Shown piece after piece: positions 3,549 to 27,108 of a stretch of DNA of 43,631 nt. Below the pieces are notes generated by a model. It saw nothing but the letters and a program-made list of their open reading frames with translations, ran no database searches and had not been told where the DNA came from. Position 1 is the first letter of the stretch; each line of letters opens with the position of its first letter. The stretch is from Desulfohalobiaceae bacterium (lineage in GTDB: Bacteria; Desulfobacterota; Desulfovibrionia; Desulfovibrionales; Desulfothermaceae), in assembly GCA_021737615.1 (NCBI GenBank), contig JAIPDR010000006.1, positions 1 to 43,631 of the forward strand, given 5' to 3'. The translations under genes were made by a program, and so were the position numbers.

Positions 3549-4203
3549 CCTGAAAGTGCTGCGCAGGCTCATGGTGGAAAGCCTGCGGCCCAAAGGGATC
3601 GAGGATCGGGCCGTTCTGCAGGCCATGGGCAAGGTCAAGAGGCATCTTTTTGTGGATGAAGCCCTGCAACCCCAGGCTTACTCCGACAACGCCCTGCCCA
3701 TCGGCTATGGCCAGACCATTTCCAAGCCCTCCAGAGTGGCCGGGATGACGGTAGCCCTGCAGGTCGGGCCGGGTATGCGCGTCCTGGAGATCGGCACCGG
3801 TTCCGGATACCAGGCCGCGGTTCTGGCGGAAATGGGCGCCCGGGTCTTCACGGTAGAACGGATCAAGCCCCTGTACTTAAGCGCCCTTGAGCGGATGGTC
3901 CGCCTCAGGTATTTCCAGGTCAAGGTCAAGTTGAGCGACGGCACCATGGGCTGGCCGGAAAAAGGGCCTTTCGATCGGATCCTGGTCACCGCAGGTGGAC
4001 CGGATATCCCTGCCCCTCTCCTTAATCAGCTTGATGAGTCAGGGATCATGATCATCCCGGTGGGCCGAAAAAAAAGGGAGCAGGGTCTGACCAGAATCCG
4101 CAAACAGGAGGGCAAATGGTACAGACAGAACCTGGGCCGGGCCAGCTTCGTCGATCTAGTGGGCAGCCACGGCTGGAAAACTGAACAGCCCAAGACCGGT
4201 TAA
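3517..4203 (+). CDS. pcm: Protein-L-isoaspartate O-methyltransferase
   Basis: SAM-dependent methyltransferase that methylates isoaspartyl residues in aged proteins and starts their repair in the cytoplasm. The 228-residue product has the usual family length. It carries the SAM-binding motif [13 protein letters not shown] (about 89-101), the family signature [10 protein letters not shown] before it, and FDRILVTAG after it. The chosen start is TTG at 3517, preceded by AAAGGGAA at suitable spacing; it lies inside the end of the upstream PEP-synthase-like gene, implying translational coupling. An ATG at 3571 would also fit but has no convincing ribosome-binding site and would remove part of the N-terminal helix. 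Function is secure from motifs; the start is less so. Confidence 0.9.
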
Positions 4204-5377: not shown

Positions 5378-5526
5378 CGTTATTTCAGAGTCCTTTCCAA
5401 ATGGGCAGTCAAGCCCATATTTGAAAAGACGGTACGAGGTCTGTATTAGTGACTTATTCTTGAATCGCTGTCATAAAAAACAAGAAAATGTTTTGCTCCA
5501 AAGTATTTACAGTCCTTGTCGTATAA
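5378..5526. other. Non-coding gap after pgsA (left part)
   Basis: AT-richer than its flanks, with no supported gene. A small bulged hairpin is visible (CAAATGGGC with GCCCATATTTG at about 5399-5424). The rest of the 330-bp gap up to pilT is occupied by the heptamer element at 5527-5648 and a short pilT leader. Confidence 0.5.
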
Positions 5527-5648
5527 GGTTCACGGTTCCAGGTTCACGGTTCACGGTTTGAAGAGGAAGAAGTTAAGAAAAAAACTGGATAGGGCAGAGG
5601 GCTTTTTCTTTTTCTTAACCGTGAACGGTGAACCGTGAACCTGGAACC
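5527..5648. repeat. Inverted element with arms of 7-bp iterated units (GGTTCAC type)
   Basis: The left arm is five head-to-tail heptamers from 5527: GGTTCAC, GGTTCCA, GGTTCAC, GGTTCAC, GGTTTGA. The right arm (5614-5648) is the same array inverted: CTTAACC, GTGAACG, GTGAACC, GTGAACC, TGGAACC. Inside the arms a second perfect inverted repeat is present, GTTAAGAAAAA at 5572 with TTTTTCTTAAC ending at 5619, around a short centre. The whole can fold as one long hairpin. No ORF or transposase is present. Architecturally it is the twin of the element at 28378-28845, built from a different heptamer. Confidence 0.8.
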
Positions 5649-5707
5649 TTTCGGGAAGATCCTTGTGGGACAAACTGAAGATTTACGGCTAAACCAATGG
5701 AGTGGGC

Positions 5708-19757: not shown

Positions 19758-19785
19758 TTGACAAATGGCCGTTTCCAAGTTTAAT
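19758..19785 (+). promoter_or_regulatory. Probable sigma-70 promoter upstream of hup
   Basis: TTGACA (19758-19763) and TTTAAT (19780-19785) are separated by 16 nt, 30 nt after rsmA. If used, it gives an approximately 300-nt leader ahead of hup that contains the concentric palindrome at 19846-19988. No closer promoter for hup was found by eye. Confidence 0.6.
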
Positions 19786-19845
19786 GAAAATCATCTAGCA
19801 AACATGCCCTCGCTAACCAAGGGTCAACTCGGTTGGGGTTAACCA

Positions 19846-19988
19846 GTGTCTGAACGAAAACGGTGATTGGACGTAAACTTGTCCAGATACGAGGAACAAT
19901 AAATTTTGAAACCGCAGTGTATTCCAATACATGATGATTTCAAAATTTTGCAGTGACGAAGTAGATGGGCGAGTTTTCGACCAAGCAC
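19846..19988 (+). repeat. 143-bp concentric palindrome / candidate structured RNA in the hup leader
   Basis: Three stems are nested around one centre. Outer: CGAAAAC (19855-19861) with GTTTTCG (19973-19979), extended by GTGT (19846-19849) with GCAC (19985-19988). Middle: TTGTCCA (19879-19885) with TGGGCGA (19966-19972), then a tandem G-A/A-G mismatch, then TAC with GTA. Inner: a perfect 11-bp pair, AAATTTTGAAA (19901-19911) with TTTCAAAATTT (19938-19948), and a small apical pair TGTATT/AATACA. No ORF is present. It may be an RNA element, or a dispersed palindromic (MITE-like) insertion. The remaining bases of the gap from 19729 to 20097 hold the promoter and the hup ribosome-binding site. Confidence 0.65.
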
Positions 19989-20097
19989 TAACTAGGTGTT
20001 ACCCCGGGGCTTCAACCCGGCAGCGGTATTTGGGTTTGTTTGGCCAAGCCTTTCACATTGACCGTTCTGTTTCATCAACCAAAAGGAGGAAGGAAGT

Positions 20098-20370
20098 ATG
20101 ACCAAAGCCAATCTGATCAACAAGATCGCGGACAAGACAAACCTGACCAAAGCAGATTCTGAAAGGGCCTTGAACGCCTGCCTGGAATCCGTCCAGGACA
20201 TCCTGGTTAAAGAGGGCAAGCTGACCCTGACCGGGTTCGGCACCTTTGCCGTTGACCAGCGCCAGGAACGCAAGGGCCGCAACCCCCAAACCGGAGCCCC
20301 GATCACCATCCCCGCCGCCAAGGTCGTCAAGTTTCGTCCTGGAAAAGTCCTCAAAGATTCAATAAAATAG
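20098..20370 (+). CDS. hup: Nucleoid protein HU
   Basis: Histone-like DNA-binding protein of the HU/IHF family, 90 residues, the usual length. It shows the N-terminal helices (MTKANLINKIADKT), the family core LTLTGFGTFAV, then the basic beta arm RKGRNPQTGAPITIPAAKVVKFRPGK, which bends DNA. It has HU-like arm residues rather than features that would identify an IHF subunit. The start has a very strong ribosome-binding site (AAAGGAGG). The gene stands behind a long structured leader and just before a small membrane protein. Confidence 0.95.
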   Translation: MTKANLINKIADKTNLTKADSERALNACLESVQDILVKEGKLTLTGFGTFAVDQRQERKGRNPQTGAPITIPAAKVVKFRPGKVLKDSIK

Positions 20371-25292: not shown

Positions 25293-27058
25293 GCACGATT
25301 AAAGACTTTCAACAAATCCAGGCGCTCATAGCCAAAGGCAAGAAAAAGGGCTACCTGACCTTTGAGGAGCTCAACGAGGCTTTACCGGCCGAAGTCAACG
25401 AGCCGGAACAGATAGAAGAGATTATCTCTATTTTCCAGCAGCTGGAAATAACCATCGTCGATGAAAGCAACAAGGACAAGGTTGGGATCTACCACAAGGT
25501 GATCGAACCGGGAGCGCCTGAAGAGTCCCTCAAGCCTGAAGCCCATCAGGAAAATGAAACTCAGGACCTCTCCAGAAGCTCCGACCCGGTGCGCATGTAT
25601 CTCCATGAAATGGGCCTGGTCCCCCTTCTGGACCGCGAAGGGGAGGTGGTCATCGCCAAAAAGATCGAGGCCGGAGAACTGGAAGTCCTGCATTCCATGG
25701 TCGAGGTCCCGGTGGCCATAGAGTATTTGATCGGGGTCGGGGAAGAACTGAAAAAAGGAAACGTCAAACTAAAGGACGTGGTCAAAACCATTGAGGAAGA
25801 CGATCCCACGGAAGAGGAAATGAACCAGCGGGAACGGGTCATCAGCCTCCTGGAAGAAATCAAGCAGGTCTACCGGAAAAAACAGTCGATCTACGCCAAG
25901 CTGAACGAGACAGCCACCCTGGAAAGACGGGTCCGGGGCATCCAGGACAGGATACTTGAATACAAGCAGGAGCTGGTGGATCGGCTTTTGGCCATCAAGC
26001 CGGAAAAGCAGCTTTTAGACGAGATAGTTGAAAACATAAACGACTATGTCCGCCAGATGAACAACTGCCGGAGGGACTATTCGGCCTACCTCCTCTCCGT
26101 GGGTAAAACCCAGGCTGAAATCGACGAGCTGTTCAGCAGCCTGGACAAAAGGAAGGTCAGCCCGGTGGAATTGGCCGACTCCATGGGTATGACCGTGGAA
26201 GAGCTCTTTTCCTTCAAGGAGATGCTCCTCGGCAAGCGGGAAATCCTGCAGCGGCTCGCGGAGAACTGCTGCCACGACGTGGGTGAACTGGAAGAAATCA
26301 TGTGGCGGATGGACAATGGCAACATGATGGCCTTAAGGGCCAAGCAGGAACTCATCAGGGCCAACCTGCGCCTGGTGGTCAGCATCGCCAAGAAGTACAC
26401 CAACCGGGGACTGCAGTTTTTGGACCTGATCCAGGAAGGCAACATCGGATTGATGAAGGCGGTGGACAAATTCGAATACCAGCGGGGCTATAAATTCTCC
26501 ACCTATGCCACCTGGTGGATCAGACAGGCCATTACCAGGGCCATTGCCGATCAGGCCAGGACCATCAGGATCCCGGTGCACATGATCGAAACCATCAACA
26601 AGCTGGTCCGGACCTCCAGATACCTGGTCCAGGAACTCGGCCGGGACCCCTTGCCCGAAGAAATCGCCGAACGGATGGACTACCCCCTGGAAAAAGTCAA
26701 AAAGGTCATGCGCATCGCCAAGGAGCCGATTTCTCTGGAGACCCCTATCGGTGACGAGGAAGACTCGAATCTCGGGGATTTCATTGAGGACAAGAGGGCC
26801 CTGGCCCCGGCCGACGAGGTGGAGCACACCAAGCTCGGGGATCAGATCCAGGAGCTATTAGGCGAGCTGACCTCCAGAGAGGAGCAGGTCCTGCGCAAGC
26901 GTTTCGGTCTCGGGGAGAAATCGGATCACACCCTGGAAGAGGTGGGCAAGCTCTTCAATGTCACCAGGGAACGCATCAGACAGATCGAGGCCAAGGCCCT
27001 GCGCAAGCTCAAACACCCTTCCAGGAGCCAGATCCTGCGTTCCTACTATGAAGGCTGA
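25289..27058 (+). CDS. rpoD: RNA polymerase primary sigma factor RpoD
   Basis: Housekeeping sigma-70 factor of 589 residues. It has region 1.1 at the N-terminus and region 1.2 ([21 protein letters not shown]). A non-conserved insert lies between 1.2 and 2.1, and region 2 carries the -10 recognition segment ([37 protein letters not shown]). Region 3 follows, and region 4.2 carries the helix-turn-helix ([24 protein letters not shown]). It is the last gene of the rpsU operon. Its TGA stop is built into the left arm of a 24-bp hairpin shared with the convergent gene. Confidence 0.97.
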
Positions 27059-27108
27059 TATCCGGCCCCGGCCTGCGGTTAGATCCGCAGGCCCGGGCCG
27101 GATATCAG
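27055..27108. terminator. 24-bp bidirectional hairpin between rpoD and the convergent deaminase gene
   Basis: The arms 27055-27078 and 27085-27108 pair over 24 bp with one mismatch around a 6-nt loop. The TGA of rpoD (27056-27058) and the TGA of the minus-strand gene (27105-27107) sit at mirror positions inside the arms. No long U-run is present on either side. It probably ends or stabilises both convergent transcripts. Confidence 0.85.

Follow-up and report, generated by a model that had tools for sequence, protein, structure and literature searches.

The 143-bp palindrome in the leader of hup, a gene of the HU/IHF family, in the genome of a Desulfohalobiaceae bacterium is, taken as a whole, probably a non-autonomous copy of a MITE-type element, the effect of which on hup is incidental and the fold of which is kept through propagation. 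In kind this is ordinary, a MITE in a leader; unusual is its core, which is conserved in structure and occurs across the phylum. The window, i.e., the whole stretch of DNA analysed, comprises 43,631 nucleotides, and the following parts of the copy and its surroundings are distinguished in it:

19840..19845, unstranded: left target-site duplication TAACCA, equal to the right copy at 5 of 6 positions
19846..19861, plus strand: left terminal repeat GTGTCTGAACGAAAAC, exact match here
19863..19878, plus strand: inner second copy of the terminal motif (GTGATTGGACGTAAAC, 17-nt register), with 2 mismatches to the motif
19881..19972, plus strand: phylum-wide conserved hairpin core (about 93 nt), scored by model R2, among the source sequences of which is this copy itself, at 88.4 bits (E 1.6e-25)
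19891..19899, plus strand: outer internal loop, 5' side, GAGGAACAA
19950..19961, plus strand: outer internal loop, 3' side, GCAGTGACGAAG, tandem G.A/A.G against GGAA
19901..19911, plus strand: 11-bp inner stem, 5' arm, pairing with 19938-19948 and covarying between families
19938..19948, plus strand: 11-bp inner stem, 3' arm
19912..19936, plus strand: inner loop CCGCAG / TGATG and apical hairpin GTGTAT-TCCA-ATACAT, as folded
19973..19988, minus strand: right terminal repeat, GTGCTTGGTCGAAAAC on this strand
19989..19994, unstranded: right target-site duplication TAACTA (6-bp duplication, consensus TARYTA)
19758..19785, plus strand: hup promoter TTGACA-16-TTTAAT, context outside the element, conserved in genome G001 and, with changes, in G002
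20098..20370, plus strand: hup, of the HU/IHF family, as downstream context; HU-beta fits best with 95 bits, short of its cut-off of 157

The sequence-only reading had described a 143-bp palindrome of nested stems at 19846-19988. It is found at these positions, but the continuous palindrome comprises the last 126 nt (19863-19988). The 17 nt before it (19846-19862) take no part in the pairing and represent a tandem repeat of the terminal motif, the inner copy of which pairs with the right end. That such nesting exceeds chance was borne out by folding, since the plus strand of 19846-19988 as RNA gives -44.2 kcal/mol (z -4.71), whereas shuffled sequences average -27.7 (sd 3.5) and none of 200 reached the native value. 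The minus strand as RNA has a weaker fold (-31.9, z -2.49); as single-stranded DNA the region gives -22.8 (z -3.83). The 11-bp perfect inner stem and the tandem G.A/A.G mismatch were also recognised correctly, the latter in the GGAA/TGAC step. In the inner loop, the family consensus is TGAGG, and the window copy, with TGATG, has lost one conserved G. Elsewhere in the window, positions 5525-5650 contain GGTTCACGGTTC-like units arranged as an inverted repeat, the arms of which measure 34 nt, are 85% complementary and lie 58 nt apart, and positions 27055-27108 a GC-rich 24-bp inverted repeat (96% complementary, 6-nt loop), perhaps a terminator.

The host genome, a draft of 280 contigs (3.84 Mb, 89.9% complete), contains at least 40 good copies of the element with 89-100% identity (40 of 91 candidates were scored, all 40 good). 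A pattern of 24 bases from the 3' half of the element, with up to 3 mismatches, matches 62 times (27 + 35), and its backward control not once. The same pattern gave 28 matches in G001, 13 in G002, 19 in G003, 27 in G005 and 16 in G007, and none in G004, G006, G008, G009 and G010; G001 and G002 are metagenome assemblies of Desulfohalobiaceae of the same genus. By BLAST, the element was found in 7 of 61 genomes, namely, 6 of 11 of its own family, including the host, and, weakly, a Desulfonatronovibrio (G050). Both the earlier suggestion of a dispersed palindromic element and the impression of similar elements in related genomes are thus confirmed, the first by these copies and the 6-bp target duplication, the second by the BLAST matches within the family and by core models across the phylum. 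No match to the element was found among plasmids and phages, or in viral contigs searched with one exact pattern. Unpaired terminal repeats in the host genome proved to be further full copies or truncated ones. Tandem arrangements of a full copy with a partial one next to it occur at L116 (G003) and L130 (G005). L139, L140 and L141 (G005) form a family of 169-bp variants that share the ends of the element but differ in part of the interior; in this family, 5-6 of the 6 duplication positions agree.

For comparison of flanks, 118 BLAST places in six genomes were taken; 21 of them, in which both ends were not reached, were dropped, leaving 97 near-full copies, and one more lacked full flanks, so that 96 were compared for duplication. 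Agreement between the left and the right flank extends over exactly six positions (79, 76, 75, 82, 78 and 75 of the 96 copies); at sixteen positions compared beyond the duplication, 16-44 of 96 agree. In 40 of the 96, the 6-bp duplication is perfect. TARYTA is the consensus of the target, in many cases with a C before it and a G after it. The same ends with duplications were found in four copies from three other families of the phylum: L238 (TATTTA/TATTTA), L241 (TATTTA/TATTTG), L247 (TATTTA/TATTTA) and L250 (TAGATA/TAGATA). Accordingly, the element has the following features of a MITE: it is short, non-coding and present in many copies, with terminal inverted repeats and a target duplication of fixed length. 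Near-identical flanks were found for L028/L098, L014/L104 and L029/L100 in G000/G001 and for L115/L107 in G003/G007; since such flanks occur in two species, activity of the element is old as well as recent.

Upstream of the element is the gene ksgA, and downstream the HU/IHF-family gene. The promoter-like pair proposed earlier is present, with TTGACA at 19758-19763 and TTTAAT at 19780-19785, 16 nt apart, and since it is conserved in two genomes of the same genus, the element probably lies within the hup transcript. In G001, the HU protein of which is 97.8% identical, the hup promoter region is conserved and the leader is without the element; G002 likewise lacks it in the leader and has retained the promoter in somewhat altered form. 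BLAST with joined flanks aligns through the hup site, although the G001 empty site is not base-perfect, also being without about 36 nt to the right of the element; among the fetched loci there is no other clean empty site. We read the hup-leader element as a lineage-specific insertion, loss in the relatives being less likely. The hup leader of G001 has one small hairpin (ACCAGGGATTCAACCTGGT), and both flanks of the window copy, at 19815-19839 and 20000-20026, look like it, which gives the impression that this leader hairpin was duplicated around the insertion.

Orientation of the 45 host copies toward neighbouring genes shows no preference: 13 are co-directional with both neighbours, 12 opposed to both, 8 lie between convergent and 7 between divergent genes, and 5 could not be assigned. 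These data bear on the earlier proposal of a regulatory RNA of the hup leader, in the form of a cis-acting riboswitch, thermosensor or autoregulatory leader of hup mRNA. Its location in a probably transcribed leader downstream of a conserved promoter, its placement in the best-folding strand and the conservation of the fold at family level would suit such a function. Against it are the G001 and G002 leaders without the element, at least 61 other matches elsewhere in the host genome, random orientation, the loss of a conserved loop base in the window copy itself and the decay of copies regardless of the fold, described below. A search against Rfam 15 at the gathering score gave only tRNAs for the window, and no relevant match at relaxed thresholds. 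We therefore consider a regulatory RNA of hup very improbable, and the proposal was not upheld.

Structure of the element is conserved far beyond the family. An exact pattern of both sides of the outer loop matched 17 stretches in the genome collection, including two from 'Proteobacteria bacterium KR46' and one from Desulfonatronovibrio, which have unrelated stems and other ends (GGCTGTTCAAAA-like) but the same fold. Covariance model R1, built from eight sequences, found the core in 37 of 395 sampled genomes of the phylum at E<=0.001, and model R2, built from the R1 hits, in 166 of 395 at E<=1e-5, with a best E<=1e-10 in 129 (counted by eye), although second-round models such as R2 can gather look-alikes. 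Ten candidates were scored per genome in the phylum searches, so copy numbers from them are lower bounds; KR46 has 34 matches to the core at E<=0.01. A 50-kb E. coli stretch gave one match of 24.2 bits, so weak hits to the core may be ordinary hairpins. The core loops keep tandem G.A/A.G mismatches of the GGAA/TGAC type and the CCGcAG/TGAGG type.

The core is found between at least the following types of ends: GTGYCTGAACGAAAAC, AGGGTGTCTTGAAAAAT, CAGGCTGTCTTGAAAAAT, GGAGACCTTTGCATAA, GGGGCTGTTCAAAAA, CAGGCTGCTCAGAAAG and TTCGTGCTCAGAAA, as read from the arms of the hits, with duplications checked for the GTGYCTGAACGAAAAC type; because several resemble one another, they may be diverged forms of fewer types. 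Genes beside the copies in other genomes, judged by eye, include no recurrent partner. In G227, a terminator-like hairpin stands on either side of core copies L202-L207, identical on the two sides but different from locus to locus, and flipped in L206; this looks like duplication of a whole target hairpin. Core copies L177, L183 and L214 (G019, G023) adjoin rRNA operons, with 5S and 23S found next door, and their multiplicity there may therefore reflect operon copies, not transposition.

In an alignment of 46 distinct rows, 92.7% of cells pair, two-sided changes occur in 25 of 29 pairs, and the covariation score is 0.610, against 0.213 +/- 0.011 for shuffled alignments and 0.08-0.11 for slid structures. 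A second set of 21 rows (20 further genomes and the E. coli match) scored 0.528 against 0.190 for shuffled rows. Both values are inflated because these alignments were fitted to the structure; in an eight-row MAFFT alignment that was not so fitted, double changes are present in 9 of the 29 pairs. Compensatory changes, proposed earlier as a check, are thus present between element families across the phylum, but not in orthologous hup leaders.

Single copies within the host genome behave differently. Among the 45 host copies, singleton variants per site amount to 0.53 in stems (92 sites), 0.50 in loops (34 sites) and 0.53 in the left 17 nt. Uncompensated singletons within pairs comprise 8 G.U, 14 A.C and 22 other mismatches, and all single changes from the consensus give 31 transitions of Watson-Crick pairs to G.U and 32 to A.C. 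The fold is accordingly unguarded at individual sites and guarded between families over a long time. Neutral drift of single copies together with conservation of the fold at family level makes selection on spreading the simplest reading, in which propagation, not a function for the host wherever a copy lies, would be what preserves the fold. Recent drift with old constraint could also be explained by a few unsampled master copies being functional.

The same data bear on a role of the copies as intergenic structures kept by the host, such as mRNA stabilisers, terminators or protein-binding hairpins. Within predicted genes, called by codon usage of open reading frames, which is a heuristic, lie none of the 45 host copies and one of all 97, and many copies abut stop codons, which would suit this role; copies are also located beside the terminator-like hairpins of G227 and the rRNA operons of G019 and G023. 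Adjacency to stop codons is, however, explained by the TAA or TAG contained in the TARYTA target, and random orientation and single-copy mutations that ignore the structure do not fit a host function, which makes this explanation unlikely.

Polarity of the fold was assessed from the types of mismatches. The model-fitted alignment contains 118 G.U (85 when one conserved G.U position is left out) against 19 A.C. This strong strand asymmetry is tempered by symmetric scoring without a loop filter, in which G.U and A.C are nearly equal (69:66 in the inner and 103:93 in the outer part), and by the moderate bias among mismatches with Watson-Crick neighbours, where the ratio is 29:13, and 21:8 in the outer arms outside the model (38 sequences in both counts). 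There is accordingly moderate support for folding of the plus strand, which fits RNA and single-stranded DNA alike.

A plain MITE, the arms of which are subterminal transposase-binding sites on double-stranded DNA and the fold of which is a by-product of inverted symmetry, is a real though lesser possibility. The ends and duplications are typical of a DNA transposon, and symmetry of G.U and A.C both among recent changes and in the unfiltered count agrees with it. Several points nevertheless argue against a mere by-product: a consistent difference between the two sides of each loop (GGAA and TGAC in one, CCGCAG and TGAGG in the other), a centre that stays conserved from family to family, stems that change freely with pairing kept, and the moderate strand bias under the Watson-Crick-neighbour filter.

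The transposase that could serve such an element was searched for by several models. PF01609 matched 8 times, in 4 of 11 family genomes and not in the host draft genome, and none of the 8 matches has a terminal repeat nearby, with up to 2 mismatches allowed. ISNCY_2 transposases were included since ISDol1 produces a 6-7 bp duplication; none was found in the host draft genome. IS1634, which produces a 5-6 bp duplication, has matches in 4 of 19 genomes and none in the host draft genome. No transposase carrying the element's ends was found among matches to PF01609, NF033594 and NF033559, and facing ends 0.5-4 kb apart in the fetched loci gave nothing convincing. As the host genome is a draft, absence of a transposase from it carries little weight. 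In G002, some 0.5 kb separates an IS1634-type transposase gene (L227, 1399-3114) from half a copy of the element (3600-3672); this neighbourhood was judged coincidental because no more than half of the element is present.

Under the preferred reading, a MITE-type copy with a fold kept through propagation, a putative transposase acting in trans would recognise the GTGYYTGRACGAAAAC ends and insert the element at palindromic TARYTA targets with duplication of 6 bp. In this lineage, the window copy would have inserted downstream of the hup promoter and ahead of the start codon, with a probably incidental effect on hup, namely, a longer leader with a stable hairpin. Only folding copies would spread; less surely, one particular strand would fold, as RNA or single-stranded DNA, and its two conserved G.A-rich internal loops would be recognised. 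Movement of a REP-type element by a RAYT (Y1/HUH) transposase via single-stranded DNA would likewise account for a hairpin that is dispersed between genes and keeps certain unpaired bases, a feature shared with the CGTC- and GTAG-tagged REPs (PMC3733652). Those REPs, of which the GTAG type is associated with a RAYT gene, are palindromes of 20-40 bp with a tag at one end, while the present element has 143 bp, terminal repeats and 6-bp target duplications; it does not fall under their definition as a 20-40 bp hairpin with a terminal tag, and a REP-type origin is accordingly improbable.

Among known systems, bacterial MITEs such as MITEAba12 and Chunjie of Geobacter uraniireducens are alike, in the parts of the publications available, in being small and non-coding, with terminal inverted repeats, a target duplication and many intergenic copies (PMC6382973, PMC10969869). 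In the available part of its description, MITEAba12 has ends common to a resident insertion sequence, 9-bp duplications and weak predicted structure (PMC6382973); the hup-leader element, in contrast, has 6-bp duplications and a covarying hairpin inside, and the search for a partner found none. Chunjie was compared by its partial description, not by sequence. The accessible text on the Bacillus cereus group presents bcr1-bcr3 as MITE-like and often transcribed in UTRs, and attributes a conserved secondary structure to bcr10 and bcr18 (PMC3446304). By this description, bcr1-bcr18 belong to one species group, whereas here mobility and a covarying core are joined and occur phylum-wide. MITEs of 'Ca. 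Thiomargarita nelsonii' form hairpins and are present in very many copies, with a parent element not identified; they differ in their ends and duplications (TATAG; 10 bp) and belong to another phylum, and the available part of that paper describes no conserved core (PMC4853749). No description of the present family was found in the literature on Desulfo-type MITEs and structured repeats, in which subscription journals were covered in small part.

Structured RNAs of the IS200/IS605 type provide a further analogy: in them, a conserved folded strand is tied to the spread of a mobile element. The present family differs in having no Rfam match, no recurrent neighbour gene by eye and a target duplication, and the likeness is one of analogy only. 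Tentatively, the elements may constitute a phylum-wide class of selfish elements that spreads via a folded RNA or single-stranded DNA of one polarity, with the two tandem-G.A loops recruiting a protein. If the folded-strand reading is true, the parallel to IS200/IS605 would lie in a structured RNA serving the element, here in elements with target duplications, and the folded core would be a module for different ends, perhaps working with several transposases or with some unknown protein partner.

MITEs are generally expected to need only their ends, and their middles should drift. Here the middle is conserved by compensatory changes in many genera and between several kinds of ends, while single copies in one genome decay freely. 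Anyone looking for regulatory RNAs in these bacteria could be misled by this large family of covarying structures, which Rfam lacks. Should movement depend on the fold, small transposons would spread by way of a step so far unrecognised, in which RNA or single-stranded DNA is recognised.
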